Source: Sphaerolaimus hirsutus (lineage: Eukaryota; Nematoda; Chromadorea; Monhysterida; Sphaerolaimidae). From it: 64,000 nt of DNA. Of this stretch, positions 2,554 to 57,777 are shown one piece after another. Made by a program: the position numbers and the translations under genes. The notes below the pieces were generated by a model. It was not told the DNA's origin and did no database searches. It saw only the letters and a list, made by a program, of their open reading frames with translations. Position 1 is the first letter of the stretch. The number at the start of each line of letters is the position of its first letter. The stretch lies in the NCBI GenBank assembly GCA_964036195.1, contig OZ038459.1, positions 4,771,206 to 4,835,205 on the forward strand. Reading direction: 5' to 3'.

Positions 2554-5500
2554 GCATCCAGCCCCAGCCCATCATGCAGGCGAGCATGCAGGCACGGGTC
2601 GACCTGACCACTTGGTGCTAGTCCCAGACCCTGTAAAATGCCCTGTAAAATGTCAAATGTCATGCAAAGTGTCAAAAGTCATGTAAAATGCCCGGTAAAA
2701 TGGCCCATTTTACCGGGCATTTTACATGACTTTTGACACTTTGCATGACATTTGACGATTTACAGGACATTTTACAGGGTCTGGAATTGCCCCCTGGTGC
2801 ACCACACAGCAGGGGGCCGTTTTCAGTAGCCCATCACAATTGGCTAACAACAAAATCGCTGAAACCCGGCTCGTGGGCGACGTGTGCTACATGCACCTGC
2901 AAAGGGTCGCCGGCGACAATACGAGAAATGCGGTGAACTTAAAACAGGCTTGTGAGGTTGGTCGAACTTGAGACGAGTGCACCATGACTTCGGTGAAAAC
3001 TGAAACTTTTTCAAATGCAAATAAGTCATCACGGTGGAATGATTGAATTTAATTAAAATTAAAATTAATGAAAGTTTAAATTTGAATATTTAAAAACTAA
3101 TACACATGGCATACAATAAGAGGCTGAATGCCGCCATGTCGCCATTTCAGTTTTCATTCAAGTCTAGTGAAAACTAGTCTGTGTAGGGCCATTGTCTACA
3201 GTAATGAGACAAAAATTCAAAGTGTCAAATAACTGGTTCAATGGCGCCACAGTAGCTAGTCTCCTTTAACAGTAGTTCAAGATCATTTCTGTAAACTAAA
3301 AATTGCATCCCAATACTAGTGCGCTGACCGCTAATTCTCAGTTAAGTGGTCAGTTAATCAACGTTCACGTCGCCATTCAGTTTTTGACAAAGTTTTCAAA
3401 TTGGAACCATGAAAACTATGTAGGGCCAAAATGTCTTCAGAAATGAGACAAAAATTCAAAGTGTGATAACTCGGCGTACATGATACTATACAATGAGTTG
3501 CATGATGTCATATCATGCACGCTGTATCCAACCCGTAGAACTCTGTTTTGGTGACTCGTGCTTACGCATATACAGAGTGAAACTATTCAATTGTGCCTGC
3601 ACAATTCAAACCCCCGTCAAAGTGTAGTTGAGTTTTTTGGCATGATGCCATCCAAGCGTTGTCTGGATCTGAATAAATACAAAGCGGGAACGTTTTCTGA
3701 ATTCAAAATTTTGGACGTAACAAGTTTTCGTTAAAATGAATCGATAGCGTGTAACTTTTCTAAATATGAATTAGATTAAACGTAGGTAAACGTATAATCA
3801 AAAATTTGCAGCACCTAGCGGCACAAAAATTGGAGTAAACGGGTGCGTAAAGAACAGCACATTTTTATTTTCCTTCTTACTATCTTTATATTTTCTTTTT
3901 TACTAAATTCCTTTCTCGTTCGCTCTACAAGAACAAAATATAACTTTCCAATTTTGTAGAATGATATGTCCGTCGACTATACATATTGACATATTCACGA
4001 CCCACTGTGCACCGTTTTTCTACCGTATTTAAGATGTATCGCACTTCGCTGTTCAGTAAGATGTTGAATTTCATCGACGCTCAGCGAAGCGAAACATAAG
4101 TGGACCAAACCTGTGTAATATCATGTCTGCCGACTATACACAAACGTTTTAATGGTTCCGTTCATACTAAATACCTGCTGAAAACCTCCAAATAAACTTA
4201 CAGGCATATGTTGTGCCAGATGGGATGGTGGCACATTTGGCCTACTTGTACAGTGACTGGGTGATTGATGTAATTAGAACATTCCTCAATCAAAGTGTGC
4301 GTTATTTCCATGTTTGATACTTTGCATGCAGTTTATCATGGAGTTCATATAAAAGCTCCAGCCAATACAGCAGGAAATGTGTTATAGTAAAACCTGCCAT
4401 AGTATTCATACACATAATCCTGAATGGAACACATGATGCTTATTGTGGTTTTTCAATTCCTTCTGCTAATGATAATTTTGAAAGATTCAGATTCATTTTA
4501 ACAATACTAAACCTACTGTATATCATTGAAAAAGACCTCCCCTTGAATACCACCCCCTGATTTTGGGACAGAATTGCCGCACTTGAATGCAGGTGGAGCA
4601 GTTGGGTACATTGCAGGGATATGGCGTCGGATTAACAAAAAGTGGTGACACGTGGTACAATGCACCATACAGTGACACGAGTGTATATGACAACACTTTT
4701 GACTGGCCATTTATGTTTGAACACATGTGGGACACAGGTGCGCTGTTCATTGTGATGTGATTCACATTAATGTGCCCAAATGTGTTGCTGCACACAGGCG
4801 AACCGACCACTGGCACCCATGGTTTCATTGACCACACCACATTCAAATTGAAGTCAGTGCCCAATTTAAGGACTGGCTTTGGAGTGTGCCAAGTTTCATA
4901 TGGCGAGTGAAGTTGTACAGATCCATATCGCGCCTAGAGTATTCAATTTTTCAATCAACCCTCTCATATTTTCAGCAGCCACAATTTTGCGACCAACACC
5001 AAAAATATATTCGCAGAGAAGCCTTTTCTGCCGCTGCCCGGCGTCTTCCGTCCCGCGACCGACTTCAAAGCGAAGCCGACCAATGAGACCACGTTGGCGC
5101 GGCAGGGCGGCATAAAATCCATGCTGCTGTGCACCGACATGTGCGCCAGGCGGCACTCCCAGATCCTGTAAAAGACACAGTAAAGTGTCAAAGTTCCTGT
5201 ATAACGTCAGGTGTCATGTAAAAGTCCCTGTAAAATGGCATGTTTCATGTAAAAAGCCCTGTCAAATGTCATGTCTCATGTAAATAAAGGGTCTTGTAAA
5301 GTGTCCTATCAGGTGTATCCAAATCTCATTTTATCGCATCCAAATCTTATCTTTTTGTATCCAAATTTCAAATAATCTAAAAAGTAAGATTTGACACTTT
5401 ACAGGGTCTTTTACATGACACCTGACATTGTACAGGGTCTTTTACACTTTACAGGGTCTTTTCCAGGGTCTGGGAGTGCCCCCAGGAAGCACCTGTGCAC

Positions 5501-5618: not shown

Positions 5619-5639
5619 TTTTCTCGTTTTTGGCTACAT

Positions 5640-7347: not shown

Positions 7348-8423
7348 GCACAGAGTGTTTGCCACCCACTGTATTTAGAGCAGGCACATTGTGACTAATG
7401 ATGGCAAACCCTCCAAAACAGTATTTAAAGTTTTAAGTGTTTTTTTAATGACTTTTGAATTTAAATTTTATCCAAAAATAGTATAGAAATTTCCAAATTT
7501 GTTTTTGAATTTCCAAGTTTTTTGGGGTTTTTTTGAAATGTTTTAATCTTTTGGGACATTGTTAATTTTTTGGCAACAAATTATTGCATTTTCTGCTAAA
7601 ATTTGAATACATCATAGTATGTTTTACAGCTTTCGAAACTGTTACCCAGACACTGCTTTACTACATGGCACCATTGGCATTTGGCGCCCTTTTTCGGATG
7701 TTTTTCCATCACTACTGCCAAGTGAACCTAGCTCATAACGATGACGTGGAAGTTTCGTGCCAAATTTTTGAAAACTACCATATTATCTTGTAGGGATTGT
7801 GACTAGTATTTTACATGGACATGTCCTTGCCAACCCTTCCTGGACATGTCCTTGAACATGCTTATCTATTGAAAATACAACATTAACCATAATAAAGTTA
7901 CTAAACACAAACAAACATGTGTAATCAACAAGCTAAATTTAAATTTGCCATAATTCTAACATGCTTTTGCACAGCACATGGTGAGTCCTGTCAATCCTGT
8001 TACATGTGGTTGAGAACGTTTGTACCCAACAGTGCAATAAATTAAGTTAATTATGGTAAAAACAAACATAAGAGCAGTGAATGTTGTGATTCTTCCCCGG
8101 AAGGAACGACCAAATACCACCAAATCCCCATTGTGCAGCAACAAACAAACTACTGCGAAATAAACATAAGACCCCCTTGAATAACTCCCCCTGTTCGCCA
8201 GGTGAGTAACAAAAAACCCTCCCCTTGAAAACTACCCTTTGAATAACACCTACCAAAAATCCCCCCCCCCCTTGAATAACTCCCCCAAAAACTCTGATGA
8301 AAAAATAACTCCCCTGGGGTCTTATTCAAGGACATTTAAGGTAGACATGAAACAACCTGCAGGCATCCAGCCCCAGCCCAGCATGCAGGCGAGCATCGAG
8401 GCAAGGGTTGACCTTACCACTTG

Positions 8424-8618
8424 GTGCCAGTCCCAGACCCTGATAAATGCCCCGTAAAATGTCAAATGTCATGCAAAGTCTCTAAAGTCATGTAAAATGC
8501 CCGGTGAAATAAGAAACGTATGTTTACCATTTTACCGGGCATTTTCCATGACTTTTGACACTTTGCATGACATTTTACATATTACAGGGCAATTTACAGG
8601 GTCTGGGACTGCCCCCTG
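8424..8618 (+). mobile_element. Introner-like element in intron 1 of copy B
   Basis: Starts GTGCCAGTCCCAGACC and ends GGTCTGGGACTGCCCCCTG. As in copy A, TGGTGC flanks both sides and removal keeps the frame (..ACT TG|G TGC GCC..) without a 3' AG. The interior is an inverted repeat with a spacer around 8505-8530. Confidence 0.68.
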
Positions 8619-8871
8619 GTGCGCCTCTCAGCGGGGGAATATTTTCCGTACCCCATCGCAAGTGTATGACAACAAAATCGTTGAAACCCGGCTCGTGGGC
8701 GACGTGTGCTACATGCACCTGCAAAGGGTGGCCGGCGACCACACTAGACCTGCGAACACCTTAAAACAATCTTGTGAGGTTGGTCGAACTTGGGACGGGT
8801 GCACCATTGTCTGCAGAAATGACACAGAAATTCAAAGTGTCGGATAACTGTTTCAATGTGTCTAGACTAGT

Positions 8872-9447: not shown

Positions 9448-10538
9448 TTATGGATCAGAGAAGCCGGGAATAACATCTATGAAATTGGTGTCATCAATTT
9501 CATTTTCCTTTTCCAGATCTTCATCAATCTCTCGATTTTCATCATGAATGTCTGAAAGAATAGTGCAATATAGTTAAAATTGTACGCAAAAATAAACTTT
9601 GATATTGTTGTGATAATCTTAGGTTCTGAATCAAACCTGGTGCCGGTTCCGCAAGTGGAAAAGTTAAGAGTTAAAACTTAAGAGTTGAGTAAAATGATAA
9701 ATGGTAAGTAAGGAGTAAAGTTAATAGTTAAGAGTTGAGTAGAATCATTTGGCGTTTTACTCAACTCTTAACTCTTAAGTTTACTCATATCTTGTCATTT
9801 GTCATTTTACTCAACTCTTAAATTTTAACTCTTAACTTTTCCACTTGCGGAACTGGCCCCTGGGTTTTCTGTCGGGTTTTCTGTCTTCCATTTCTGTGTT
9901 TGACTGTCCGTGTTCATCATCAGATTGCACAGTGTTCTGTGGGAAATTACCTTTTGCAAAAGTATTTTGATTTGTGTTAGACAAAGTTTTCAATGTACCG
10001 TATTACCTTGAAATACCCTCCCCCCCCTCGTTTGACCCCCCCCCCTCTTGAGACTACTATGAAACAATCACCCCCCCTCGAAATACCCCCCCCCCAGATT
10101 GAGCGTAGTGCAGAACACACGTTAAAACAATGTCGGAATCATGTTAGAACAGTGTTTATACCATCTACGTACTAATATTAGTCTACAGGAGTCTATACAT
10201 GTCAGTTATTGATGCATTTTTCTACCCCAGCGCACATCACAAACAATGATTTTGTACTAGGATGTCAAAAAAAATGTTACGAAATAATACCCCCCCCCTC
10301 GTTCAACCCCCCCCCCCTCTCGGGAGCACTATGAAACAATCACCCCCCTGGGGGGTATTTCAAGGAAATACGGCATAATCACTCACTATGGAATTCCCAA
10401 TTGCAGTGGCCAAATTGTCCATCAGTGATGCCAAATTTAGATAAACTTTATTTGCCAGAGGTCCTTTCATATTATTCTGCTGATTCATGTTTCTATTGTG
10501 TGTGGCTGAAGGACCAAATGATTTGACTCCACTGTAGC
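9448..10538 (-). CDS. Unrecognised hydrophilic protein, 3' part of a gene (frame conflict)
   Basis: Three exon-like blocks. 10387-10538 (acceptor AACGCAG, donor ATAGTGAGTG) encodes a region with PSATHNRNMNQQNNMKG and an amphipathic NLASLMDNLATAIGNSI. 9860-9936 (acceptor CCCACAG) joins in phase and is acidic (SDDEHGQSNTEMEDRK). 9448-9551 (acceptor CTTTCAG) ends with a TAA and is very acidic (ENREIDEDLEKENEIDD). The middle block ends at an inverted-repeat element with GG instead of GT, and canonical phases do not connect it to the terminal block in its acidic frame. A GC-AG reading (exon to 9857) followed by a 46-nt intron (9552-9597) would restore it. The 5' part was not found. It lies inside an intron of copy B on the opposite strand. 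Family not recognised. Confidence 0.4.
9636..9859. mobile_element. Introner-like element, CAAGTGGAAAAG family
   Basis: Ends CTGGTGCCGGTTCCGCAAG and CTTGCGGAACTGGCCCCTG. The interior is an inverted repeat of GTTAAGAGTTGAGTAAAATG-type motifs around 9745. On the minus strand it lies directly between the coding blocks ending at about 9860 and the sequence at 9635. The terminal GTGCCRGTTCCGC pattern is shared with the UBASH3-like gene introns. Other members or fragments lie near 20572-20645, 37255-37366, 59.94-60.13 and 63.32-63.43 kb. Confidence 0.65.
9996..10374. repeat. CCGTATTACC palindromic element, second copy
   Basis: TACCGTATTACCTTGAAATA at the left, TATTTCAAGGAAATACGG at the right, with flanking C-runs and two internal copies of ACTATGAAACAATCACCCCC. 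Same family as 6660-7061. It lies in the intron between the first two coding blocks of the minus-strand fragment. Confidence 0.75.
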
Positions 10539-14778: not shown

Positions 14779-15936
14779 GACACGCCTGTTCCCATACCAC
14801 ACAATAAATTGGCTCCCACATTTGTTTACAGGTTTATCTTGGTATTTCGTCAGATTGATTTTGCCGGTGTGAAATAAATGGGCTTCATAAAAAATGGAAA
14901 ATTGAGAAAATCGAAAATCAGTATAAATTTAAACATGTAGTTCTCCACTTGCGAAATTGGCACTCTCTTCACGTTAAAGCATGTTGAACTCATCATTATA
15001 CACTACGTTTGTCAAATAATATAATGCCCTGTAACATATTTTTTACGTTTTCTATGGTACCCATGTAATTGTGCCAGGAAAACGTAACAAAATGTAATGG
15101 TATTTTTGGAAAGCGTAAATGTAAACGTAAATATTAAAACCAGAATAACCAGATATTTTGGGTATAAATGGGTATTTTGGGTATTTTATAAATGTAAATA
15201 CGTTTTTGCAGCACTGGTATGCATTCACATAATCCTGAATTGAACAAATGATGCTTATTGTGTTTTTTTTCAATTGTCCTTCTGCTAATGATAATATTGA
15301 ACGATTCAGATTCATTTTTACGAAACTAAGCATAAGACCTCCCCTTGAATAACCCCCCCTGATTTTGGGACAGAATTGCCGCACTTGAATGCAGGTGGGG
15401 CAGCTGGGCGCATTGGAGGGAATTGGCGTCGGCGTAAAAAAAAACGGTGACACGTGGTACAATGAGCCATACAGCGACAACACTTATGACTGGCCATTTA
15501 TGTTTGAACACATGTGGGATACAGGTGCGCTGTTCATTGTGATGTGATGCACATTAATGTGCCATAATGTGTTGCTGCACACAGGCGAACCGACCACTGG
15601 CACCCATGGTTTCATTGACCACACCACATTCAAACTAAAGTCGGTGCCAAATTTGAGAGATGGCTTTGGAGTGTGCCAAGTTTCATATGGCGAGTGAAGT
15701 TTAACAGATCCATATCGCGCCTAGAGTATTCAATTTTTCAATCAACCCTCTCATATTTTCAGCAGCCACAATTTTGCGACCATCACCAAAAATATATTCG
15801 CAGAGAAGCCTTTTCTGCCGCTGCCCGGCGTCTTCCGTCGCGCGACCGACTTCAAAGCGAAGCCGACCAATGAGACCACGTTGGCGCGGCAGGGCGGCAT
15901 AAAATCCATGCTGCTGTGCACCGACATATGCGCCAG

Positions 15937-16273
15937 GCGGCACTCCCAGATCCTGTAAAAGACCCAGTAAACTGTCAAAGACCCTGTATAACGTCAGGTG
16001 TCATGTAAAAGTCCCTGTAAAATGGCATGTGTCATGTAAAAGACCCTGTCAAATGTCATGTGTCATGTAAATAAAAGGTCTTGTAAAGTGTCCTATCAGG
16101 TGTATCCAAATCTCATTTTATCGCATCCAAATCTTATCTTTTTGTATCCAAATTTCAAATATGTAAAAAGTAAGATTTGGATACAAAAACATAAGATTAG
16201 GATAAGATAAAATGATATTTGTACACACCTGACACTTTACAGGGTCTTTTCCAGGGTCTGGGAGTGCCCCCAG
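15937..16273 (+). mobile_element. Introner-like element forming intron 7 of copy B
   Basis: GCGGCACTCCCAGATCC ... GTCTGGGAGTGCCCCCAG, a GC-AG intron equivalent to 5150-5485. The central part carries an inverted pair of CAAATCTTATCTTTTTG and ATACAAAAACATAAG. Confidence 0.7.
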
Positions 16274-16619
16274 GAAGCACCTGTGCACGGCCGTGGCGCA
16301 CGACCCCAATGCGCAGCTGTGTTTGCTAGCCGTCGACATGACCGTGGAGAATAAGTTCTTTGAACTGGATGACAACTTTGATGTGTACTTGAAGGTGACA
16401 AAGTGATTTTCTTTTTTTGACTAGGTACATTGCATGGGAACATGACCATTTAACAACACTTGTTAACGTTGTTCAAAAACTCAAAAGTCAGCATATTTAC
16501 TCAAATATGCGTGGCCATAAGAATAAGGCAATTTCATAAAAATACCCATTATTGCACTATCGCATCGCAGTATTGTGCTAATGCAGTGCACCTTTTTTCA
16601 TTTTGATTAGCCCATATAT

Positions 16620-21500: not shown

Positions 21501-24500
21501 TATGTTAATGAATGACATTATAACAGCAATCAATTTTGTCATCTTTTTATGAAACTCGCACGCGCTAACCATCGTTGGCACACTTCCAGAGGGAACCACC
21601 CGTGCAGGGTGTAAAGTAACCGGAGTATACCAAAAGCAAAATCTGTAGTTTGTCTAAATTTACATTAACCCCACTCCGTTTTACGGTTTCCTCTTTTTCA
21701 GACAAATTTTACTGTTTTCCTCCATATTCTCCTTAATGCTGCAGCTCGGGCGTAAAATTGATTTTTGGGCATAAAATTGATTTTTGGGCATAAAATTGAT
21801 TTTTGGGCATAAAATGTATTAAAGGTGAATGAATAAAGATATGGTGTTGTAATTTCAGTCAAACAAAGCGCACATGCAGATGTTGCTTGTGTCCAAAGCT
21901 CATCAGTTTATTTTAATTGTACTAGAAGTTATGAATTTTGGCGCAAATTTTTGTAATTTTACACCCTAATTTTACGCAACTTACAGCGCATAATTGAAAA
22001 AATTGTGCTAAAATTCATCACTCCCAGTACGATTAAAATAAACTCATAAGCTTTGGACACAAGAAACGTCTGCATCTAAGCTTTCTTTGACTGAAATAAC
22101 AATGTCGTATCTTTATCCATTCATCTGTAATTAATTTTACGCCCGGTCAATTTTACGCCCGAGCTGTAATCAATCACAGCATAAAAAAATTGTGATTTTA
22201 ATGCCCATAAAATATATTTACAATGGCATGATATTTTGTATCATTACGTTTGTATCGAAGTTGTCGAGCGTTCGTTACATACAAACACACTACATATATA
22301 GTTAACACACGTCCGCAGTCAACTGGAAAAATCTGTTTTTAATGGATTTAGAACGACAGGTATTGACGGGGAGCCATCGTCGTCACGTCCATAAACTCTC
22401 CGTCAACTAAAACGCATTTCAAACAGATCCCCGTTGACTCAGTCAACTAGTTCGCACAGCCACTTGGCGCATCCGCTCGCGAACTGACCAGTATGACGGC
22501 GAAGGCGAGCGGTATGCCGAGCAGGGCGTAGCCGATGGTCCACGCGCGGCCGCGACCGGTTGCCGCCGCTATGTCCCCGTAGCCTGTCAAGGGGAAGTTG
22601 CAATTTGGTTGACACTTGATTAGGGATGGAACAAACGTTTTTCGGCGAACAGGTTTTTGTTAAAAAAATGTTAACAACGTTTTTGTGAGAAAAACGTTTT
22701 CATCAAAACTTCTGAACATGCTTGTGAGACAACATGTACAGGGGTGGGCATCTTCAGTTACCGCTGGGAAAATGCGATAGATTGAGCTACGGTTGAGCTA
22801 TCAGAATGAAATTTTAACACAATGGAGTAGACTCCATAGGACACCTATTCTGAAGTTTGCAACCCAAACGGCCACATTTTGGGTGAGTTGTGGAACACAC
22901 GGTTTTTAGTGTAATTTTGTGACTTGGCGTCACCCATAGGATAAATCGAGGGTGGCATTTGAGGGGGGGGCCATCGGTCGTTGGTGTCGTCCCATTCTGT
23001 CGTACATCGGCCGATTTTGATGCCCTTTGAGTATGTTGTGGTCGCGCCTACTACCAAATTCTTTTTTTACTCGAATAGTCCCCCAGTCCCGAGATAAGGG
23101 GGGTGAAGTCACAAAATTACACTAAAAACTGTGTGTTCCACAACTCCTCCAAACTGTGGCCGTTTGTGTTGCAAACTTCAGCATAGGTGTCCTATGGAGT
23201 CTACTCTATTGTGTTAAAATTTCATTGTGATAGCTCAACTGTAGCTCAAGCTATCGCGTTTTTCCAGCGGTAACTGAAGATGCCCACCCCTGTATATCAA
23301 AGTGGAAGTACTTTGTGATGTTATATATAACCATAGAATAGCTGTGAAGCCATGGTATAGCCTCATTTCTATGGTATAGCATCATCATCAAGTTGTGATT
23401 TCTGCCATACGAATCTAGGTAATGTGAAGGCACATTAGATTCGTATGGCAAAAATAAATAACTTTTTAAAATCTTAAACTCATCAGACTCGAATAAAAGA
23501 AATGACTTTTCACACCCAATCCCCGTCACAGAAACTCACCGATGGTCGTGTAGATAGTGATGCAATACTGCACGGCGGTCCACAAAGTCCATTCAGGCTC
23601 ATAATCGTCATAATTCTCTTCTAGCAGGTCCACCTCGATGTGCTTCAGCTCGGCGAGCACGGCGGACACGCGGCCCGCCTCGTCCAACTTGTCGTCGTTG
23701 TAGATCTCGTCGATCTGCGTGCGTGTTGGTTTGGTCGATGTCGATGGATTTATCGACAATTTTGGATCGGTTTAATTGTATCGTAAAGTTCAGACCAATC
23801 TGTTGAAGATGAATTAAACGGCGTTACATGTATTTGGATCAGTGCCAACTTGCCATTGCTCATTTGGTGTGGCGCATGATAGCGATAAATCGACCCGACC
23901 CGAACGTAATACCTACATATAAAAAAATACAGAAACCTGATACCGGAGCCTGAATATTTTGGAATTCCCAACCCTAGTCCTTGCCTATGTTCTTTGTGCT
24001 GATGTTATTTAAAAAGTTGGCAGGTTGCCAACAAAACATATTACAACTTCGTTAGTGGGTGCGAGACATCACGAAATAGTTTTAGAATTTTCGCATTTTA
24101 TGTCCTGAATTGTGAATTTTTATTGTTTCGTCGGTTTTGTCATATTTTGCGTATTTTTTACAGATATTATTCGTAGGCACAATCACTTATTGTGACCTAA
24201 AATAGCCTCAAATCATAGAATTATTTTCAAATTTCTGTTTGTCATCATTAGTTGGACTTTCGCATTATTTCGCAGCCATGTTAATTGACCGACCCTGTGC
24301 CGTCAGCCATATAAACCCGCTGGTCATGTAGCGTCAAAAAGTGTTTTTTTTTAATTTTTGGTTTGTTGTAACTTTGCACTGTTTAAAGCGCTGAACACAT
24401 TTGAGTAATTAAACTCAAACATGATACGAAATGTCATTACTTATCATTTATGACTTTATTCATATTTGTTCAGCACTCCTATTCCTGATATTCCTTGAAT

Positions 24501-25221
24501 AAAGTGAAAATATGATGAGTAAAGATTTCTCATCGTATAAATAGGTATATGGGTTGGGTTTACATGGCCGCCGGGTAGAATTAAATGTCCGCCGTGTCTA
24601 CATGGCCAGCGGGTTAAAATGGCCAAGGAGCCTACGTCAATTGACCGGTGGCAGTCCCGCACCCTGTAAAGTGTTAAGTAGAGTTCAGATGTCATGTAAA
24701 TGTCGATCAAAATACCTATGAAAAAGACTTTATTACTGAACTTTTGACATTTTGTATGACATTTGACAAATTTGTATGAGATTTGACATGACATTTGACA
24801 AATTTGTACGAGATTTGACATGACATTTGACAAATTTGTATGAGATTTGACATGACATTTGACAAATTTGTATGAGATTTGACATGACATTTGACAAATT
24901 TGTATGAGATTTGACATGACATTTGACAAATTTGTATGAGATTTGACAATACATCTGACACCTGACTTTACACTATACAGGGTGCGGGACTGCCCCCAGG
25001 CCGCAGTTTGAACGAACCTTGTTAGCGTACTCCCCTCTTCTCCTATTCAAATCGTTGCTCTTTTCCTGTGCGCTCGCAATTTCGCTTGGCTCCTCTATCA
25101 TGAAAAAAATGTAGGCACCGAAAAAGGTGTACAGCAACAATAATACCAACAAAACTAGCGGTCTGAACGCTTTTTCGAACGCGTTCAGACAAGAATAAAC
25201 TTTTGGAGGGGGGTCGGCCAT
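18508..25221 (-). CDS. Two-pore-domain (K2P/TWK-type) potassium channel
   Basis: Seven exons: 25018-25221, 23540-23714, 22489-22583, 20917-21090, 20360-20512, 19523-19685 and 18508-18725, all GT-AG and in phase, giving 393 residues. The start is the ATG at 25221, first in frame before the hydrophobic segment. Membrane segment M1 is at about 21-45. The first pore has TTIGYGD at 124-130, split between exons 2 and 3 after the G of GYG. M2 is at about 140-158, M3 at about 193-215, the second pore has STIGLGD at 233-239, and M4 is at about 248-266. Two selectivity filters with GYGD and GLGD define the K2P family, plasma-membrane leak channels that set resting potential. The short exon 1/2 linker is acidic; the cytosolic tail has a basic RKWHSCARKR stretch. 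The join between exons 6 and 7 (donor CCATGTGTG) is the least certain. Confidence 0.92.
18745..19150. repeat. Inverted-repeat element, CGGGTCATGTAAAC family
   Basis: Left part: repeated CTGGTCATGTAGACCCG and GGCGGACATGTAATTC. Right part: GACACTACATGTCCAGCGGG. Between them is a large imperfect palindrome of AAAGTGACAAAAAAC and AATGATAAATAATGAC motifs. A relative spans about 24290-24640, also in a K2P intron, and a fragment lies at about 46020-46080. Confidence 0.5.
21742..22166. repeat. Inverted-repeat element CAGCTCGGGCG, 425 bp
   Basis: CAGCTCGGGCGTAAAATTGA at the left and TCAATTTTACGCCCGAGCTG at the right. Next to the left end the unit ATAAAATTGATTTTTGGGC is tandemly repeated three to four times. 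The centre is a palindrome (AAATTCATCAC / GTGAT..). I see no clear target duplication. It lies in the intron between K2P exons 3 and 4. Confidence 0.6.
22739..23292. mobile_element. TA-flanked MITE, 554 bp, copy 1
   Basis: Begins CAGGGGTGGGCATCTTCAGT and ends ACTGAAGATGCCCACCCCTG, with TA on both sides. The whole element folds as one long imperfect hairpin (for example GACTCCATAGGACACC and GGTGTCCTATGGAGTC). It is nearly identical to 37981-38534. It lies in the intron between K2P exons 2 and 3. The TA duplication suggests a Tc1/mariner or other TA-targeting family. Confidence 0.85.
24647..25000. mobile_element. GTGGCAGTCCCGCACC inverted-repeat element with internal tandem repeat
   Basis: Left end GGTGGCAGTCCCGCACC, right end GGTGCGGGACTGCCCCCAGG. 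It lies 17 nt inside the first K2P intron; the intron's own donor is AACAAG|GTTCGT, so here the element is a passenger, not the splice-site donor. About 24755-24950 holds six to seven near-identical copies of a 32-33 bp unit (TTTGTATGAGATTTGACATG plus ACATTTGACAAA). Confidence 0.7.
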
Positions 25222-25763: not shown

Positions 25764-26262
25764 TGCGCCGTCAAACCCGCACTACACATTTATATAACCA
25801 CCGGTGTCGCGGCAAAATATGCGACCCCTTATAACGCGAAATAATTTTCAACGTAAAAATTGGGGCATATTTTCGCGTGGCATCGTTTTGGCCCTGGAAC
25901 TGAAGTGTGCTGCAAGAAAAAGCACTGCGCCGCGGTGAAGTCGCGTTGCACGGATACGTGTAGTATGCCGTGTGCGCGCGCATTGGCGCCCTACGAAACC
26001 CGGCACCAAATTACATTAGAACCTAAGGCGCACTTAAGGCGCCCTACAAGTGCCATACACAGACACTCACATTGGATGTCAACTGGTTTCGGTGTCAACT
26101 CAATTTTGGCGCAATTTAGGTCACGGAAAAATTTTACACATGCACATGCGCACTGTCATGCAGAAATGTGGAAAGGGAATCAATATGTGAATCAATATGT
26201 CAATTGAACATCATTTCATAACCCATGAAGTAAAATCTTAATGAAAACCGGTTGGCCCAGTA

Positions 26263-26462
26263 GCAGAGCCTGTAAAGTGCCCAGAGCCTGTAAAATGCCC
26301 TGTAAAATATCAAATATCATGCAAAGTGTCAAAAGTCATGTAAAATGCACTGCAAAATGGCAACTCTGTTTTACAGGGCATTTTACATGACTTTTGGTTT
26401 TGACACTTTGCATGACATTTGACATTTTACAGGGCATTTTACACTTTCTGGGATTGGCACCT
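26263..26462. mobile_element. CCAGAGCCTGTAAAATG inverted-repeat element
   Basis: Left GAGCCTGTAAAATGCCCTG, right TTTTACACTTTCTGGGATTGGCACC. Interior TGTCAAAAGTCATGTAAAAT and its complement. Member of the GTGCCARTCCCAGACCCTG family with a degenerate left end. The flank at 26463-26590 is GC-rich and open on both strands. Confidence 0.6.
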
Positions 26463-26880: not shown

Positions 26881-27122
26881 GTGCCAATCCCAGACCCTGT
26901 AAAATGCCCTGTAAAGCGTCAGCTGTCGTGTTAAAGTGCCAAAAGTCATCTTAAATGTCTGGGAAAATGCCAAATGTCATGTAAAAATTCCAAGTCATGA
27001 AAAATGGCAAATGTGCGTTGGCAAACAAAGGACAAAATTTGTTCGTTTGGCTCACAAATGTACATGATTTTTGACAGTTTGCGTGACATTTGACATTTGA
27101 TAGGGTCTGGGACGGATCCCTG
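26881..27122. mobile_element. GTGCCAATCCCAGACCCTG inverted-repeat element
   Basis: Left GTGCCAATCCCAGACCCTG, right ATAGGGTCTGGGACGGATCC. Same family as the introner-like elements; no coding context is recognisable here. Confidence 0.6.
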
Positions 27123-32255: not shown

Positions 32256-35200
32256 TCACTTTGCATCCACGGGTCTATTGAAGAAGTTATGGTTGACCTT
32301 GGTGCTAAAATCGCACGTGGTCATAGCGGGAATGGAGTGCCTCAAAAGACGCCAGGGGGCAGTCCCAGACCCTGTCAAGTGTAAAGTAAAGTGTCAAATG
32401 TCATGTAAAATATCTACCAAAACGAAAAAGATCTTTGCATGACAATTGACACTACTTTACATTTTACATGACAATTGACACTTTACTTGTCACTTTACAT
32501 GGTCTGGGATTGGCACCAGGGCTGGCCGGCGGCGGGCGGCTCGCAGAGGACCACCGTGCAGCAGTAGGGGTAGTGGAAGCCAAGGCGGTCGATCTCCAGC
32601 TTGGTTACTGGGGGGGGGTTGATTTGGTGGGTTGAGAGGGGGGATCGGACCATTGAGAATGGCGTAGAGATGAAAATGTCCAATGTCGTGTAAAATTATA
32701 ATGCTTGGAAAAACTAAATTAGCTAAATTTAACACTTTACATCATTATTTACCCTTTGCATAGCATTCTCCATTAAACATGACATTTTACAGGGTAAAAT
32801 GGTAGTTTTCCATAATGACATGGGTCCAAATATTTAAAAAAATATTACCTACTCTGCTTTCACAACGATAACTGTGTTGAGGTATCCGAAAAACATTTTT
32901 TTTCCGACCACATAAATCTCCAAATACACTTCACATGCAAACCTCACTTAGGTCACCGCACGACTACCCCCGCCCCCCCCCCCCATCACACTAAAAACAA
33001 CCCCCCTCACCATTAGCGGTGGACTTGTAGGGTTCAATGAGCGCGCGCACGCCCGCGTCGATGGTGGACGCGTGCCCGACAACCAGGGCGCACCCGTTGC
33101 CGGGCACCTGCAGGGCGCTGAGAGCCTTCATAACCCTGCCCACGCGTTCGTAGTGCGCCTGGGGGGTCTCCTCGGCGATGGAGCCCCTGCGCAGCAGCCT
33201 AGTCATCGGCACTATCGGCTTGTAGGTCATGTCCACCTATGCGTTTTGAGATTGAGTTTTGAGTAGTGATGGAAAAGCGCCATGGCGCTGGCGCCTGGCG
33301 TTAGCGCCAAAGCAAAAAGCGCCATTGCGCGCTTGGCGCTTGGCGCCATATTGCTCTGGCGCTTTTGGCGCTCGGCGCCAAAGTCCTGGCGCTTTTTCCT
33401 TCACTAGTTTTGATGATGTTTGAATATCTGGGTTCAGATTTTGACCCCAACAATGTCGGGTTGTTGTCAGTTCCGTTCCGGCCCCGACGGCGGCAATTGA
33501 AATACCAATAATTATTAAAGCATGCGATTTCTGCTAAAATACCTATGAAAAAATGTATTGTTGTGACTACGTTAACGTAAAACGTTATAACAGCATTGAA
33601 TTTTTTATCTTTTACTGAAAATCACATGCGTTAAATAGCGTTGGCGGCGAGAACTCGGCCGTAAAGTAAACCCGGCCGTAAAGTAAATCCGGCCGTAAGG
33701 CATAGTTCTACAAACGTATTTACGTTTACCCGATAAATACGTATACTCGAGTGCGTAAATGCGTTTACGTTTACTCCCGAAAAAATACCGGTACTCACTT
33801 TCTCGCGTACTTTTTGAAAGTACGCGAATACAGAAAACGTGATTGAGAACATTTTTTGAGTGCATAAAAAGCAAAAAATCACTCACACGAATATAAACGG
33901 CTGAAAAAAAGCGTAAAATAACAGCGGAAATTATCGAATTCGCGATGGGTAGGGATAGCGACGACTCTTGCTTTCACCTATACTCATTTTTACGTTTTCC
34001 TAGGTACAAAATGGAAAAATTTACTTTTACGCTTTCCCTGAGTATTTACAGATCTGTACGTTTACTCACCTTTTACACAGCGTAAAAGTAGAAAAATTTT
34101 AGATTACGTTTTCTGTACTCAGGTGTCACTAAAAATAAAATACTTTACGTTTACGTTTACTTTGAACAAAGTTCAGTACTTTTAACAACTCTGCCGTAAT
34201 GATGCCCGGCCTAAAGTCGCACCCTCTACCTTACGGCCGGGTTCACTTTACGGCCGGACCATCCCCACCGTTGGCACGCTTCCAGCGTGAACCATCCGTA
34301 CAAAGTGTAAAGTCGACGGGGTACAAACCAGTGCTTCTCCCGATCCCGATAACCACTTCTTAGAAAGTGGGAATTTTTCAGCTCACCTTGACAGGATTAA
34401 AGAGTTTCTCATAATCGGCATACTGCAGCCAGGAGAGCTGTTCATTCTGATACCAGGCGAGCCATTCGAATAGACCAGGTTCTATGCGAATGATGGCATT
34501 AGAATGGGCCGCCTTTGCCACTTGAAGGGCGGTCTGCGCCGCCCGGTAGCACGGCGACGTGTAGATCACCTATGGGAGGTTTGGGTGCGGTAAATTGGCA
34601 AACGGTACGGATTTACGGTACGGTGAGTTTTCCGTTTTACGGTGAACGGTTATCAAGGATGAATTTTGAAATTTGCGATAAACGGTACGGTAAATTTGAG
34701 ATTGCGGTAAACCGTACGGTACGGTAAAATATATGTCTTGATCCAGTAAAAATCTAAAGTCAAAAAAGAGAACACGTTTTGTACTTTGTATGTGACTCCG
34801 CCTTTTTATTTTCAAATGTTGTTTTATAAATGTGAAAGTGCGTGCATCCCGCTTGCGCGTTATCAACGGAAGACAAAGTAATTTTAAAAGTATACTCTGC
34901 GGTCCGCCGAATCGGTTCTTTGATAAAAAAAACGGTTTTAAATTTGAAAAAATCCCAAACACCCCACCCCACCTGCGGCACCAATTCGCCCGCGTGCACA
35001 ACGCGCAGCGCCCTGCCCACCATGCTGGCGGTGATGGCGCCCACCTCGGTCTGGCGGACAATTCCTCAAGTGGACGAGTGTCAAGTCAAGTGACAAGTGA
35101 CGCGTAAAGTTGTGGGTAGTTGGTCATGTGTAGTGATGGACAAGCGCCATGGCGCCTGGCGCTAGCGTCAAATGAAAAAGCGCCATGGCGCTTTTGGCGC

Positions 35201-36656
35201 TTGGCGCCGAAGTCCTGGCTCTTTTTCCATCACTAGTCAGGTGACAGGCAAACTAATGAGTGACAGGTTATCTACAAATTTTACTTGACACTCGTTAGTT
35301 TACTTGTCACCAGACTTTCAACACAACTTCCGACTTTACTCACCACTTACCACTTGTCTCAGCACTTATCCACTTTCGGAATGGGCACCAGGGGCGCGTC
35401 GTTGCGCCAGCCGCCCTGGCCGCCGGCTGCGGGCGTCCGCGACGGCAGTGCGAGCGGCATGTTCAAATCGTACGGCTTGTACACGTCCTGGAACCAGTTC
35501 CGAGAGTGGATAAGTGACGGGAAAAGTGGTAAGTGTTAAGTGAAGTTTGGGTGGTTAGTCAAGCGATAGTTGAACGTATACTGTATTTCCCCGAACTACC
35601 TCCCTCGTTTAAACCCCCCCCCCCCAAATTCTCACTCTGAAAATATAAACCCCCCGGGGGTATTCCTAGGAAATACGGTTGTTTACTTGTCACTTGACTA
35701 GGCACATCACTTAACTTGCCACTTCCCACTTTTCTCGTCACTTATCCACTAGCGGAATTGGCACCTTTTCGAATGCGAGCTTCATCCAGTTGGGGAAGAC
35801 TCGGTCGACCCGCTCGGCGTGCCGCATCACTATGAGACGTTTGCCGCCCGTTCCCGCGTGCTGCGCCCGCTCGTACAGACCTGGGGCCAGTTCCAATTGC
35901 TAGAACGCAAGTCACGCGGTCGAATTGTTGAGAAGTTGAGACGTAAAAAAAGATTTAAAAGAGACGTAGAATGAGACGTAAAAACTTAAGAGACGTAAAT
36001 TTAGAGAGGTAAAATGACTTTACTCGTAAAAAGTGTTTACTTTAGCTACTTATAATACTTACTTAATTAACCAAATGCATCCAAGTGAAAGCAATGTAAT
36101 GCGATGAGAAGAAAAACAGTTTTGGTTGTTTTTTTTACTCAGATGGCATACTTCATTTTGGATTTACAGTAGGTTCAATATTTTACTCTTCTTATAAAAT
36201 TCACATACTGTAAGCTACAATAATTTACCTAGTGACCTTCTGCATCATAAAATGTCCCAACTCGAATAAAACCCCCAGCTACCATAATCCCCCAAACAAA
36301 CTAGTAGTACCCTCCTTGGACGCCGCAAAAGCATCACCAGGCACAGTTTCATTAGCCTCGGTGGGCACCAACGACCCGTCGCCGGTGGTCGTGAAGCCAG
36401 GGGCCAATCCCAGACACTGTCAAGTGTGAAGTAAAGTGTCAAATGTCATGTAAACTGTCAATTAAACCAAAACATATTTTCTTACTGAACTTAACATGAC
36501 ACTTGACACTTTACTATACACTTTACAGTGTCTGGGATTGGCACCAGCCTCGTCGCCGGTGGTGGTGAAGTCCGACTGGTCGCCGGTGGTCGTCGTGTAG
36601 CCGGACGCGTCCGTGGTGGACGTCATGGTCGTGGGCACCGACCTTCTAGATGACAT
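32256..36656 (-). CDS. Histidine phosphatase, UBASH3/ecdysteroid-phosphate-phosphatase type
   Basis: Nine exons: 36545-36656, 36311-36397, 35765-35880, 35389-35487, 34973-35050, 34387-34569, 33011-33236, 32517-32607 and 32256-32340, giving 358 residues. The phosphoglycerate-mutase-like fold shows MRHAERVD (R86, H87, R90), DLNMPLALPSR (about 112-122), SPCYRAAQTA (R173), EPGLFEW (194-200) and VVGHAS (H280): the two catalytic histidines and phosphate-binding arginines of the family, with UBASH3-like DLNMP and EPGLFEW signatures. The first 66 residues are Thr/Ser/Asp-rich with repeated TTTGD; no UBA or SH3 domain is seen, so it is the bare phosphatase module. Likely a soluble phosphatase acting on phosphotyrosine or steroid phosphates (inference). 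Three introns show element-derived ends on both sides. The exon 1/2 join lacks an AG in the frame-preserving position and is uncertain. Confidence 0.88.
32341..32516 (-). mobile_element. Introner-like element forming the last intron of the histidine phosphatase
   Basis: On the minus strand it runs from GTGCCAATCCCAGACC to GGTCTGGGACTGCCCCC plus TGGCGTCTTTTGAG. A canonical AG exists 12 nt beyond the element end (TTTGAG|GCAC) and gives the same frame as cutting at CCCCCTG, so either junction is possible. The interior repeats CTTTACTTGTCACTTTACATG-like units in opposite orientations. Confidence 0.7.
33264..33406. mobile_element. GCGCC-rich hAT-like MITE, 143 bp
   Basis: TAGTGATGGAAAAGCGCC ... 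GCGCTTTTTCCTTCACTA with GTTTTGAG (33256-33263) and GTTTTGAT (33407-33414) as the 8-bp duplication, one mismatch. It lies in the intron between exons 6 and 7 of the histidine phosphatase. Confidence 0.8.
35051..35388 (-). mobile_element. Whole intron formed by an inverted-repeat element (intron 4)
   Basis: On the minus strand the intron starts GTGCCCATTCCGAAAGTGGA and ends GTCCACTTGAGGAATTGTCCGCCAG. The two ends are complementary and coincide with the donor (CCCCTG|GTGCCC) and acceptor (CCGCCAG|ACC). Arms continue with AGTGAGTAAAGTCGG and TGACACTCGTCC motifs. A younger hAT-like MITE (35131-35235) is nested inside. Confidence 0.8.
35131..35235. mobile_element. GCGCC-rich hAT-like MITE, 105 bp, nested
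   Basis: TAGTGATGGACAAGCGCC ... CTTTTTCCATCACTA with GTCATGTG (35123-35130) and GTCAGGTG (35236-35243), an 8-bp duplication with one mismatch. Inserted in the introner-like intron 35051-35388. Confidence 0.8.
35488..35764 (-). mobile_element. Whole intron formed by an inverted-repeat element (intron 3)
   Basis: On the minus strand it runs from GTGCCAATTCCGCTAGTGG to CCACTCTCGGAACTGGTTCCAG. The terminal inverted repeats again coincide exactly with donor (GAAAAG|GTGCC) and acceptor (GTTCCAG|GACG), phase 0 on both sides. A small CTGTATTTCC...GGAAATACGG MITE (about 35579-35680) is nested in the middle. Confidence 0.82.
36398..36544 (-). mobile_element. Introner-like element between exons 1 and 2 of the histidine phosphatase
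   Basis: On the minus strand it runs from GTGCCAATCCCAGACACTG to CAGTGTCTGGGATTGGCCCCTG. Excision at the shared CTGG restores GDEA-GFTTTGD in one frame but has no AG. A canonical alternative (donor GC at GAG|GCTG, acceptor ACCGAG|GCT) would also be in frame and drops 11 codons. Confidence 0.6.
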
Positions 36657-37565
36657 TCTGTCAGCGTTCTGGTGCCATGTGGGGGAGATAACAGTTAAGG
36701 GGGGTCAAGTTAAAAGTGAGGTGAATTTAGAGGTGAGAAGTGAAATGAGAAGTATCAAGTAAAAAGGTATATGAATTTAGACCTGAGAAGTGAAATGAGA
36801 AGTGTTAAGCTATTAGTGAGGTGAATTTAGAGTTGAGAAGTGAAATGAGAAGTAAAAAGTTAAAAGCGAGGTTAATACATTTAGAAGTGAGAAGCTATAA
36901 GAAAATCTAAGGGTTACTTTTAACTTTTTACTTATCATTTCACTTCTCACTTTTCATTTGACTTCACTTAAAATTTTTTAGATTTCAAATCGATCCCACT
37001 TCCAACTTTTTACTTGTCACTTTTAAAATGTTTCTTTATTTACTTCGCGGAATTGATCCCTGGAGCTGGAGTCACTCCAGTGGAGTGTAGCAGGTTTTTG
37101 GGGTGGGGGATTATTTCAGCCGATTTTGATTGAGTGATTTGAGTGTTCCTTTTTGGCAGCGTTATTGGGGGTTTTATTGATCGCTTGGGGCTGGGTATTT
37201 TTAGCGCGCTATCGGGTGAAATTTTTGAATATTTATTAAAATGGATAGTGAACCTGGGGCCAGTTCCGCAAAATAAAAAGTGAGAAGTGAAATGGCAAAT
37301 TCAATTGCCATGTCACTTCGCCTTTGCCATTTCACTTCTCACTTCTCATTTTGCTGAACTGGCACCTGAAGTGAAGTGAAGTGGGTCCACAGACAAAAAT
37401 GAAAAATTTTATTCAATTTGTCCCGAAAAGCGAGATTGTTGTCTTCAGGAAAAAGTGCCCCAAATCGATCTATAAAATGATTGAAAAGGCCCTTAAAGAA
37501 CATGATTGATTAGTTTCACACTAAAGAGGACAAGTATAAAAAAACTACTTTCAAAGGCTGTGGCT
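36657..37565. promoter_or_regulatory. Divergent intergenic region between the two phosphatase genes
   Basis: The histidine phosphatase (-) and the PP1-like gene (+) start on either side of this 0.9-kb segment, so it should hold both promoters. It contains AAGTGAGAAGTGAAATGAGAAG tandem-like runs (36700-36900) with their complement (36910-36990) and a complete small inverted-repeat element at 37255-37366. I see no clear TATA-type motif. Confidence 0.4.
37255..37366. mobile_element. Short introner-family element, 112 bp
   Basis: TGGGGCCAGTTCCGCAAAA ... TTTTGCTGAACTGGCACC around a AAAGTGAGAAGTGAAATGGC hairpin. Smallest complete-looking member of the GTGCCARTTCCGC family, here in intergenic DNA. 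Confidence 0.65.
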
Positions 37566-40500
37566 ATGCCAGACGATAAAGAAACGCAATTTGCTGAGAA
37601 AAAGCGTGGTGATGTACAAGCGAATATAGAAGCGACTGGACAAGACAAGAAAGGTCAGATATACTCAATTGACCGCACACTGCATTCTACCATAAACTGC
37701 AATTCGATAAGCCATCTGAATAAAAACCGTAAAACATTTCAAATCACTTGATTCATCAAAATACGGTAAGATATTTATTTGAATAGCTTGCAGTCCTGTC
37801 GGTATTTAGGTATATTCGTGAGGCGTCAAGAAAAAGGCCTCAAATGAATGTCAACTGTGATATTTGAAAATAACGGCGTGAAGTTTAAAGTTGAGGAATC
37901 CGTTGGAAAAATTCGTGGTTAAGCGCTTCATGCTAATCTAATGGCGTTAATTGTGTTATCCAATAGTCTTCGTAAATATACAGGGGTGGGCATCTTCAGT
38001 TACCGCTGGGAAAATGCGATAGATTGAGCTACGGTTGAGCTATCAGAATGAAATTTTAACACAATGGAGTAGACTCCATAGGACACCTATTCTGAAGTTT
38101 GCAACCCAAACGGCCACATTTTGGGTGAGTTGTGGAACACACGGTTTTTAGTGTAATTTTGTGACTTGGCGTCACCCATAGGATAAATCGAGGGTGGCAT
38201 TTGAGGGGGGGGGCATCGGTCGTTGGTGTCGTCCCATTCTGTCGTACATCGGCCGATTTTGATGCCCTTTGAGTATGTTGTGGTCGCGCCTACTACCAAA
38301 TTCTTTTTTTACTCGAATAGTCCCCCAGTCCCGAGATAAGGGGGGTCAAGTCACAAAATTACACTAAAAACTGTGTGTTCCACAACTCCTCCAAACTGTG
38401 GCCGTTTGGGTTGCAAACTTCAGCATAGGTGTCCTATGGAGTCTACTCTATTGTGTTAAAATTTCATTGTGATAGCTCAACTATAGCTCAAGCTATCGCG
38501 TTTTTCCAGCGGTAACTGAAGATGCCCACCCCTGTATTACACAAACGGAAACGATGCATGACAAAAGATCATACAAAACAGCCTGCAGTCGCAGATGAGA
38601 AACCAACATCATCAGAACACCAACCTGAAAAACCTACTAAACGCGAGGATGCACAAAAATATGATGATGCACCAAAACCGGATGAAGCACCAAAAACGAG
38701 CACTAAAAGTGGAACACGGAAAGAACCACTGGCCAGGTACAGGGTTTACTTAGCCAGATACGTTTTTGGGGCAGCCCGATGTGCCCAGTTTCCGGTTGTC
38801 CAGGGGTGTGAACTGTGCACATGCAGTTGTCCACTGAGCACAGTTGTCTGGCGCTGTTTGTGGACCAAGTGTTATTCGCCATAATTTTGCTATAAGGAAC
38901 CGCAAACGGATGTTCAATAACAGAAAATAATAACCCTTTTTCTGCCCTGCTAACTTATAATCATCAGCACCCAAATCGGGCAGCCCGACGGAACTACAAA
39001 TCGCCAAATCTGGCAATTCAAACCCGTGCCCAGATCCCCGCCGCCCGCAACAGACGATGAAGATATCGCCCTAGTAGAGGAGACATTGGCCGCGGCGGCG
39101 GCGATGGAGCGGCGCCCGCTGCCCAAAATCGACATCGACAGCGTGATCGACCGCTTGAAGGGCATGGTCGACTCGGACAAGCTGCTCAGCGAGGTTCTAA
39201 GGCAGGACGAGGTTGGTGCGGATGGGGTTTTTTGGGCATGTGGATTTTTTAGGGTCTGGCTCGAATGTCGGTGAACATTTTACAATTCTACATTTTTATC
39301 TGAAAAAAAATTAATTTTTTCGCATTGTATTGCATTAATATCGGTGGGTTGGTGCAGAATTTTAATGCACGTGCATAGATAGAAAAAAACGGTAACAGGT
39401 TTCTATTTAACTCATATTTAAAATGTTTTTTGTATATTTGGCAAACTTGATGCTGGACAATATTCAAAACATTTACGCTGAGGTGTTTCACATAGGTACC
39501 TATTTATGCACTGTGTGCATTTTATGCACTATGCATAATACCACATCCTGACCAGGGTTGGCAAAATCTCAGAAAAGAATAAAAATAAAATTAAAATAAA
39601 ATGGAAAATTGAAGAATAAAATAAAATAAAATAAAATGGAAAATTTCAAAATAAAAATAAAAATTGTATAAAAATTCGAATTTTTGTAAAATTTTTGTAA
39701 AATTGTATACAAATTCATATTTTTGTAAAAATTGTATAAAAATTCATATTTTTTGTAAAAAATTTTTATGTTGTTTATAGTTCAACCTGTTCATTCGCGG
39801 AGCTGGGGCAGTCCCAAGCCATGTAAAGTGTCAAAATGTCATATGAAATGGAATGGAAAGTGTCAATTTTCATGAAAATGTTAAGTAAAGTGTCAATTGT
39901 CATGACAAATTAAGTGGAAACTGTAAAGCAAATTGTATCCAAATCTTATCTTTTGTATCTAAATCTTGTTGTTGTAACCAAATCTTATGTGAACATTCGG
40001 ATACAAAAACAGAAGATTTGGATACCAAAATATAAGGTTTGGATACCAAAACATAAGATTCAGATACACATTTTACACTCTGCACGACATTTGTCATGAC
40101 AATTATACTTTGCTTGACATTTGAGATGCCAATTGACTCTTTACTACATTTGTCATGACAATTGACACTTTGCATGATGTTTTACAAATGCGCCCAGCAC
40201 ACTCCAGTAATCCTTCTACTGAAAATGCAAACCATTCTTCTTGATAATTGTAACTTAACACTTGCAACTAGCTAACAATACCTACTGCATGCAACTTTTG
40301 CAAAGTAATGGAAAAATGTGTCACACATTTTTCATGTTTAGGTCTAATTATCACATTTTTCTGACCTTGCATGCAAGATTCTGATTTTTTTGTAAAATTT
40401 CTGTAAAATTTTTGTAAAATTTTTGTAAAATGGTCCATTTTATTATTTTATTATTATTTTGGAATAAAATAAAATAAAATAAAATGAACCAAGAATAAAA

Positions 40501-56409: not shown

Positions 56410-57777
56410 AAAGCCTCAGTCCACTGAAGCGTGCGCCGAATGCAAAGTGCATGTATGATGCGCCGCGATTCTATCGGATTTAGTCCCAACCCTCACAAAT
56501 GAAAGACGTGCCGCAACATTGGTGAAAAAATCAATGGGGTCCCAAACTTTTGGCTGCGGTGTTGCGCCCCCTCCCTCTTCCCCCAGGTGCCAGTCCCAGA
56601 CCCTGTGAAATGCCCTGCAAAATGTCAAATGTCATGTAAAATGCCCAGCAAAATGGCAACTCGGTTGCCATTTTGCAGGGCATTTCACGTGACTTTTGAC
56701 ACTTTGCATGACATTTGAAATTTTACAGGGCATTTAACAGGGTCCGGGACTGCCCCCAGGGGGTTCAGAAGATGTGAACTGCGTTCCATTTGGAGCTTTT
56801 GGGACTTGGGTCTAGTGATCGGACTGAACGCTGCGCAAAAATGCTACCGTTTTTGGTGGATTAAGTAAATATGTTAAATATTTTGCAACAAATGCACTCA
56901 TAGCGGGGGCACTCTGATGTAATGAGGCAATGTAAATTTTTTAGTTTTTTTCTTCATTCAGATGGATGCTTTCATTGTATATTGCGAGGTCACTGGCGTG
57001 AAGTGTTTTTTTTATGACGTAACTCACTTTTATGTTCTCAAAAGACGCGGCCAAAAAAGTTGCCAGGCGTTTTTTATTTTTAAAAAACAGCTACCTAGTG
57101 ATATGAACAATAATAATCTGTCAATTTCACCAAACTCTCCACCACAAAACACAATTGCAAAAATTCCCCGCCAAAGTCACCGACCAAAGCCAACATTATA
57201 ACTGGTATATAAGCCCACATAACGGAAAAGGCCTCAAAACTACATCGCAGTGCACCGCACATCATATTCGATGCGGTGCACTGCGCGACACGCAACTACC
57301 AATAAGCTGTACCAATAAGCCCAAAACTTCAGGTGCCACTCCCAGAGCCTGTAAGATGCCCTGGAAAATGTCAAGTGTCATGCAAAGTGTTTTAGTTATG
57401 TAAAAGTCCCTGTAAAGTGTTAAATGTCATGCAAAGTGTTTTAAGTTATGTAAAAGTCCCTGGAAAATGTCAAATGTCATGCAAAGTGTCTAAAGTCATG
57501 TAAACTTCCCTGGAAAATGTCAAATGTCATGCAAAGTGTCTAAAGTCATGTAAAATGCCCTGGAAAGTGCCAAATGTCATGCAAAGTGTTTAAAGTAATG
57601 TAAAATGCCCTGTAAAATGTCATGTGTCATGCATTGTGTCTAAAGTCATGTAAAATGCACTGCAAAATGGCAACAGAGTTTGCACTTTGCATGACATTTG
57701 ACATTTGACAGGCTCTGGGATTGCCCCCTGCGCGGCGCCTCCCAAACTTCGAACCCATCCATCTCTTATCATCAGAT
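56410..57777 (+). CDS. Candidate gene fragment with exons flanked by introner-like elements
   Basis: Weak evidence. An inverted-repeat element at 56587-56759 starts at CCCCCAG|GTGCCAGTCCC and ends GGGACTGCCCCCAG|GGG, a canonical GT-AG intron shape. Open sequence lies on both sides, but I could not fix the frame. A better exon is 57251-57332 (acceptor CATCGCAG), encoding a Cys-containing stretch with TNKPKTS, which would continue after a second element (57333-57730) at 57731-57777 (RRLPNFEPIHLLSSD, donor GATGTAGGA). That second junction again has CTG, not AG. No family recognised. Confidence 0.25.
56587..56759 (+). mobile_element. Introner-like element with intact GT and AG ends
   Basis: GTGCCAGTCCCAGACCCTG ... 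AGGGTCCGGGACTGCCCCCAG, 173 bp, an inverted repeat of TGTCAAATGTCATGTAAAAT and complement. Both splice dinucleotides are preserved. Confidence 0.7.
57333..57730. mobile_element. Introner-family element expanded by internal tandem repeats
   Basis: GTGCCACTCCCAGAGCCTG ... CAGGCTCTGGGATTGCCCCCTG. The left arm has about five to six copies of a roughly 60-bp unit (GGAAAATGTCAAATGTCATG, CAAAGTGTCTAAAGTCATG); the right arm has one. This shows arm growth by tandem duplication. Confidence 0.7.

Follow-up and report, generated by a model that had tools for sequence, protein, structure and literature searches.

The origin of animal introns is an old open question. In the algae Micromonas and Aureococcus, Huff et al. 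reportedly described in 2016 transposons in which one terminus forms one splice site and the target duplication forms the other. Introners, as presented by Gozashti et al. (2022, PMC9860276), are dispersed, near-identical introns whose similarity extends to both splice borders and which often carry terminal inverted repeats (TIRs) and target-site duplications (TSDs); in the accessible text of that study, introners occur in only two groups among 835 animal and land-plant genomes, both of them animals, with copepods named. NuwaI transposons, which belong to the PHIS superfamily and occur in animals, are described as making CWG duplications and as having TIRs that usually start with GGG; the hosts given in the accessible part of that description are 12 bony fish, one beetle, one crustacean, one mollusc and one anthozoan, with no nematode among them (Han et al. 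2015, PMC4482050). In the larvacean Fritillaria borealis, very many introns are reported to have a repeated triplet, YAY, at each border, and the authors of that work mention, among the possible origins of the divergent splice sites, introner transposons whose splice sites are weak (PMC13326754). The available text of a 2022 nematode study states that the source sequences of newly gained introns were not identified (PMC9169325), and we found no nematode introners in the open-licence literature. Here we analyse a 64,000-nucleotide stretch of Sphaerolaimus hirsutus DNA (contig OZ038459.1, positions 4,771,206 to 4,835,205 of the forward strand; the whole stretch is referred to as the window). Two consecutive predicted introns of a histidine phosphatase gene in the window, J and K, are very probably introners, that is, introns that would have been created when a short non-autonomous DNA transposon (miniature inverted-repeat transposable element, MITE), resembling the CWG-targeting NuwaI type of the PHIS superfamily, inserted into the gene.

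The host gene lies on the minus strand and encodes, as judged by protein comparison, a UBASH3 or ecdysteroid-phosphate-phosphatase-like histidine phosphatase. The predicted protein, which was made by excising J, K, a third copy of the element (I) and three ordinary introns, aligns with the solved histidine phosphatase 3c7t (E 9.8e-30). A protein search with the spliced product returned 26 matches, the top named ones being UBASH3A-like or histidine-phosphatase proteins; the UBASH3-like matches were, in order, a nameless protein, Trichinella, Toxocara, Trichinella, Ascaris and Acanthocheilonema, with arthropods lower. The two introns and the repeats nested in them are as follows.

35488..35764, minus strand: intron K, consisting of the element (35491-35764) and the acceptor CAG (35488-35490); flanking triplets AAG and CAG.
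35051..35388, minus strand: intron J, consisting of the element (35054-35388) and the acceptor CAG (35051-35053); flanking triplets CTG and CAG.
35560..35700, minus strand: younger MITE nested in K, borders approximate; matches 31 of 52 records, self-matches included.
35125..35240, minus strand: younger MITE nested in J, borders approximate; matches 40 of 52 records, self-matches included.

Read on the minus strand, K (35764-35488) starts with GTGCCAATTCCG and ends with CGGAACTGGTTCCAG, while J (35388-35051) starts with GTGCCCATTCCG and ends with GGAATTGTCCGCCAG. The two are similar introns whose likeness extends to both splice borders; they have in common a left arm of 57 nt (82% identity), and within K the two arms pair over 53 nt with 85% complementarity. 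The J junction is free of gaps in all nine aligned homologues, and at the K junction the query equals three of the nine in length and is one residue shorter than the other six. Read-through without splicing meets a stop 8 codons past the K donor and 9 past the J donor. The original prediction held that each intron is a single inverted-repeat element whose inverted termini are the donor and the acceptor. The letters, ends and span of that description match the DNA, but the acceptor CAG lies just outside the repeat as a copy of the target site, and the repeat thus provides the donor only; the model in which both splice sites fall within the inverted repeat was rejected on these grounds. The additional claim that a younger MITE is nested in each intron was borne out, the inserts of J and K being different repeats that are each also present elsewhere; the 52 records searched include the window and an overlapping copy of it (L005), and 30 of them (L005-L034) had been fetched with J as the query. 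In the same gene, the intron ahead of exon 35878-35765 (window 35881-36544) closes with the right end of an element, GGAACTGGCCCCAG, for which no left end was recognised.

The element consensus comprises a left end, GTGCCARTYCC, and a right end, GGRAYTGSCMC, flanked by CWG-like triplets. A finder in which the second base of each end was left free returned 12 elements in the window and 13 more in 20 stretches of the same genome that together form a 200-kb sample, 25 in all; at least two of the 25 (L040:3677 and L053:7987) have triplets that are not CWG-like and may be chance calls, and J, which has an extra base in its right end, is missed by this end-neutral approach. The flanking triplets, most of which are CAG or CTG, were identical in 14 of the 25 elements compared with 7.2 by shuffling (P 0.00065), and a pattern of CWG target duplication is thus present in the family. 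When duplication of WG, WGG or CCWGG was considered instead, CWG fitted best, giving symmetric element ends. In sequence the two ends are unequal, with GT or GC at one and GG at the other in 21 of 25 copies, and the terminus mostly starts with GGG at one end and GTG at the other; the second bases of the two ends were T and G in 18 copies, C and G in three, A and T in two, G and G in one and T and T in one. The left flanks of the elements at L036:5119 and L052:5695 close with letters resembling another copy's right end (CATTGGCCCCAG and AATTAGTCCCAG), as if elements had inserted side by side.

These features suggest a simple route to an intron. A transposase would insert the element at CWG and duplicate this target. 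Where the target is CAG on the gene strand and the element has its GT end upstream, the product would be CAG/GT...element...CAG/, such that the first bases of the element become the donor, the duplicated CAG becomes the acceptor and splicing restores the old message. In J and K the predicted donor GT is the first two bases of the element and the predicted acceptor CAG is the duplicated target. The CAG product is matched by K with AAG on the left, by elements B and E (see below) with a GC donor, and by elements M and N in their letters only. The founding step, which is historical and which we infer, was probably a change of a single terminus base, from GGG to GTG; as the marks of NuwaI are CWG duplications and a GGG terminus, one such change could create a splice donor.

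A protein search identified a second UBASH3-like gene in the same genome, on C2 (record L055), which is 57-58% identical to the first in the two best exons. This paralogue has an unbroken exon across the K position (GERRLIVVRHGERLDTIFPTWPHLAFTSAVGYRAFDLNMPLSVPDR) and another across the J position (RREEWTNDPPITELGQITAGLVARAIKQ). It does not resemble a processed copy, as different non-coding DNA lies between its matched exons. With respect to whether introns occur at the same positions without the repeats, which would argue against introners, this 57% paralogue is the one comparator; it has no intron there, and so favours introners. Intron gain in the first gene would be the simplest reading of the contrast. 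The 3' region of the paralogue (C2 ~13403630-13403880, minus strand) contains, by eye, a copy of the MITE nested in K.

The element belongs to a large family. The end motif GGTGCCARTTCC, allowing at most two mismatches, occurs 36 times in the window against 8.62 expected, and GGAACTGGCCCCAGG, allowing at most three, 19 times against 0.56; in neither case did any of 100 shuffles reach the count. A strict 22-base left end preceded by CA was found 1181 times in the 348-Mb genome, whereas the reversed control gave 0. Scaling up from 12-13 copies per 200 kb suggests about 20,000 genome-wide, relics and false calls included. Fourteen paired elements were curated by hand in the window, with 109-395 bp between the triplets. 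The family is typical of MITEs in that its members are short, lack coding capacity, have TIRs and are present in high copy number. Searches of viral and bacterial collections gave one viral match for one pattern and three for another, in which no element was seen by eye, and genome_contigs gave none; RNA families and tRNAs were not found in the window. The flanks of the 25 elements have a mean GC content of 48%, compared with 41% at random sites (P 3.6e-4). The other copies in the window are listed below.

2615..2793, plus strand: element A, triplets TTG and CTG; coding-like segment without a Pfam match.
5150..5482, plus strand: element B, GC donor, triplets CAG and CAG; splits a PAN-like domain.
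8424..8615, plus strand: element C, triplets TTG and CTG; copy of A in a duplicated segment, without a Pfam match.
9640..9859, plus strand: element D, triplets CTG and CTG; AT-rich surroundings.
15937..16270, plus strand: element E; copy of B in a duplicated gene segment.
24648..24996, plus strand: element F, triplets CCG and CAG; antisense, adjoining an exon of a minus-strand K2P-like gene.
26254..26460, minus strand: element G, triplets CAG and AAC; degenerate right end.
26881..27119, plus strand: element H, triplets CTG and CTG.
32356..32516, minus strand: element I, triplets CTG and CTG, right border lacking AG; in the final coding part of the phosphatase gene.
36401..36544, minus strand: element L, triplets CTG and CTG; 5' part of the phosphatase gene, frame kept on excision (EAG/FTTTGDG), peptide without a Pfam match.
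37257..37365, minus strand: element M, triplets CAG and CAG; upstream of the phosphatase gene, outside recognised coding sequence.
56587..56756, plus strand: element N, triplets CAG and CAG; outside recognised coding sequence, joined flanks without a Pfam match.
57333..57727, plus strand: element O, triplets CAG and CTG; internal tandem copies.

Copies beyond J and K also split coding regions. B and E interrupt a PAN-like domain in frame (PAN_1, E 2.7e-4; 21.1 bits, cut-off 21.4). The match covers residues 30-82, the junction follows residue 43, and the element fits the junction as exactly as in J and K. Between B and E the exons differ at 3 of 255 positions and the element at 56 of 333 (P 1.3e-11). 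Two further cases come from the 200-kb sample. L050:7990-8146 interrupts a CUB-like domain (8.5e-4; 20.1 bits, cut-off 21.4), of which the left half alone scores 0.03 and the right half has no match; this peptide had no match in the PDB at E 0.05. L040:6705-6935 interrupts an Exo_endo_phos-like domain (6.1e-4; 20.1 bits, cut-off 24.5), the gene in question being one that may itself belong to a mobile element. The GT or GC end lies upstream in the gene in the homology-backed cases, namely J, K, I, B/E, L050 and L040:6705, although this tally is biased since joined flanks from the sample were translated only in the element's own orientation. The central claim of the original prediction, that these are introners, is therefore upheld by a dispersed family, by element borders that coincide with the predicted splice sites, by a paralogue uninterrupted at both positions and by other copies that split coding regions in frame.

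Several further features of the window accompany these copies. The gene segments 4402-5804 and 15217-16604, which contain B and E, are duplicates of 89% identity, as are 2538-2985 and 8346-8807, containing A and C, at 86%. The K2P-like gene near F has a single protein match, from Dracunculus, and F itself includes tandem 32-bp units that are ~97% alike (window 24756-24960). Element O contains internal tandem units of ~50 bp (window 57350-57674), indicating that the family also grows inside its arms. A 562-bp direct repeat of 99% identity (window 22734-23295 and 37976-38537), whose ends are mutually inverted at 94%, has the look of a separate transposon that was active recently.

It should be emphasized, however, that a number of observations weigh against the introner interpretation. 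The flanking triplets differ in 11 of the 25 elements, and several copies at CTG targets lack an AG. At an identity of only 57%, the paralogue may itself have undergone intron loss. Apart from this paralogue no empty site was found among the fetched records; with 33 joined-flank queries the sole junction-spanning match was that of L036 on its own locus (90%, 115 bases). The contrast between exons and element in the B/E pair, clear for the whole element, is weak when only the first 221 bases of the element are considered (9 changes, P 0.075). Scores for PAN_1, CUB and Exo_endo_phos are all below the curated Pfam cut-offs, no Pfam match was obtained for the joined flanks of L040:5489, L054, L017, N and L008 or for the peptides of A, C and L, and the peptide at element H has only a weak match (Carb_bind, 0.0066), which falls well short of the cut-off. 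Frames that stay open across the junctions do not exceed GC-matched controls in length (KS P 0.14); the attempt to prove exonic position by open-frame length thus failed after GC matching, and the coding case is carried by homology rather than by frame length.

The alternatives that fare best concern the copies at CTG targets, whose right border carries TG; both triplets are CTG in I and L, whereas A and C have TTG and CTG. Such copies may gain an AG by mutation, use the next AG in the exon, or splice at TG, and the comparison of CAG with CTG insertions is in effect a natural experiment on how a missing acceptor is coped with. It could be argued, and we regard this as possible though on balance not likely, that the CTG copies represent recent or tolerated insertions which disrupt or truncate the message, with no splicing at the border of the element. 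The lack of AG at that border is consistent with such a view, as is a stop that follows soon after the conserved stretch in A and is absent from C. In contrast, homologues align on both sides of the junction of element I, and past it the frame of this gene stays conserved as far as the C-terminus, while A and C represent one insertion in two copies whose elements have diverged by ~10% (19/179). In the two exons around A and C 18 codons differ, and 14 of these differences change the amino acid, which gives no sign of exon constraint at this pair.

A second explanation, which we consider doubtful, is that the CTG-site copies I, L, A and C would be true GT...TG introns spliced at the duplicated CTG. 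Removal of element I at TG gives exactly the homologous length after a conserved W, and in A, C and L the first AG further on would break the frame; there is also a precedent in humans, where TG is described as an alternative 3' splice site in 36 genes (PMC2374985). Against this, the next AG of element I lies 12 nt downstream and is in frame, the substitutions between A and C are more frequent at third positions when splicing is placed at the AG at +13 (hand tally), and the donor of L can join the acceptor at 35881 in frame, skipping the stretch between (by eye). Moreover J, whose left triplet is CTG and whose right triplet is CAG, appears as if its acceptor AG had been regained by mutation. 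A broader version of this explanation is likewise improbable: the single terminus change would have made a CWG-targeting transposon into an intron generator with thousands of copies, and, with its CTG copies spliced GT...TG, one element would supply canonical and non-canonical introns to the same genes.

That ordinary MITEs were inserted into pre-existing introns, their ends falling at splice sites by coincidence, is very unlikely. Such insertions could account for D, M, N and O, which lie outside recognised coding sequence, and for F, which is antisense and beside the K2P-like exon. They do not explain why the element in J and K is not flanked by remnants of an older intron, why the paralogue is intron-free at both positions, or why B and E fit equally exactly. 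Finally, removal via a hairpin instead of ordinary spliceosomal splicing can be given very little credence, as, while K and J are predicted to fold into long hairpins in which the two ends pair (-116 kcal/mol with z -7.11 for K, -152.6 kcal/mol with z -11.75 for J), every palindromic MITE folds in this manner and the ordinary GT-AG ends of the two introns need no other pathway.

The introner interpretation thus offers a source and a mechanism for introns that are readable in the sequence, the donor being derived from the transposon end and the acceptor from the duplicated target, a combination reported from very few animals. If it is true, introners become tied to a named transposon group, and one more animal lineage joins a short list. 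The family would be a further introner case of a known kind, in a nematode-like genome. The systems attributed to Huff et al., which reportedly work in the same way, are algal and are said to have longer duplications than the present family, and the Chrysochromulina introners are described as having 4-bp TSDs and no TIRs, in contrast with the TIRs and 3-bp CWG duplication seen here. The larvacean introns resemble ours in being animal introns flanked by a repeated triplet, but 95% of them are given as non-GT/AG, mainly AG/AC and AG/AT, whereas the clear product of the present family is GT(GC)-AG (PMC13326754). With the introners of the 2022 survey the family shares dispersal, similarity up to the splice borders, TIRs and a duplicated target, but the accessible text of that survey notes no nematode among them (PMC9860276), while the present genome is nematode-like. 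With NuwaI, compared by ends and triplets alone, it shares the CWG target duplications and an animal host; one of its ends mostly starts with GGG, and the other differs from the published description in reading GT or GC where NuwaI has GG.

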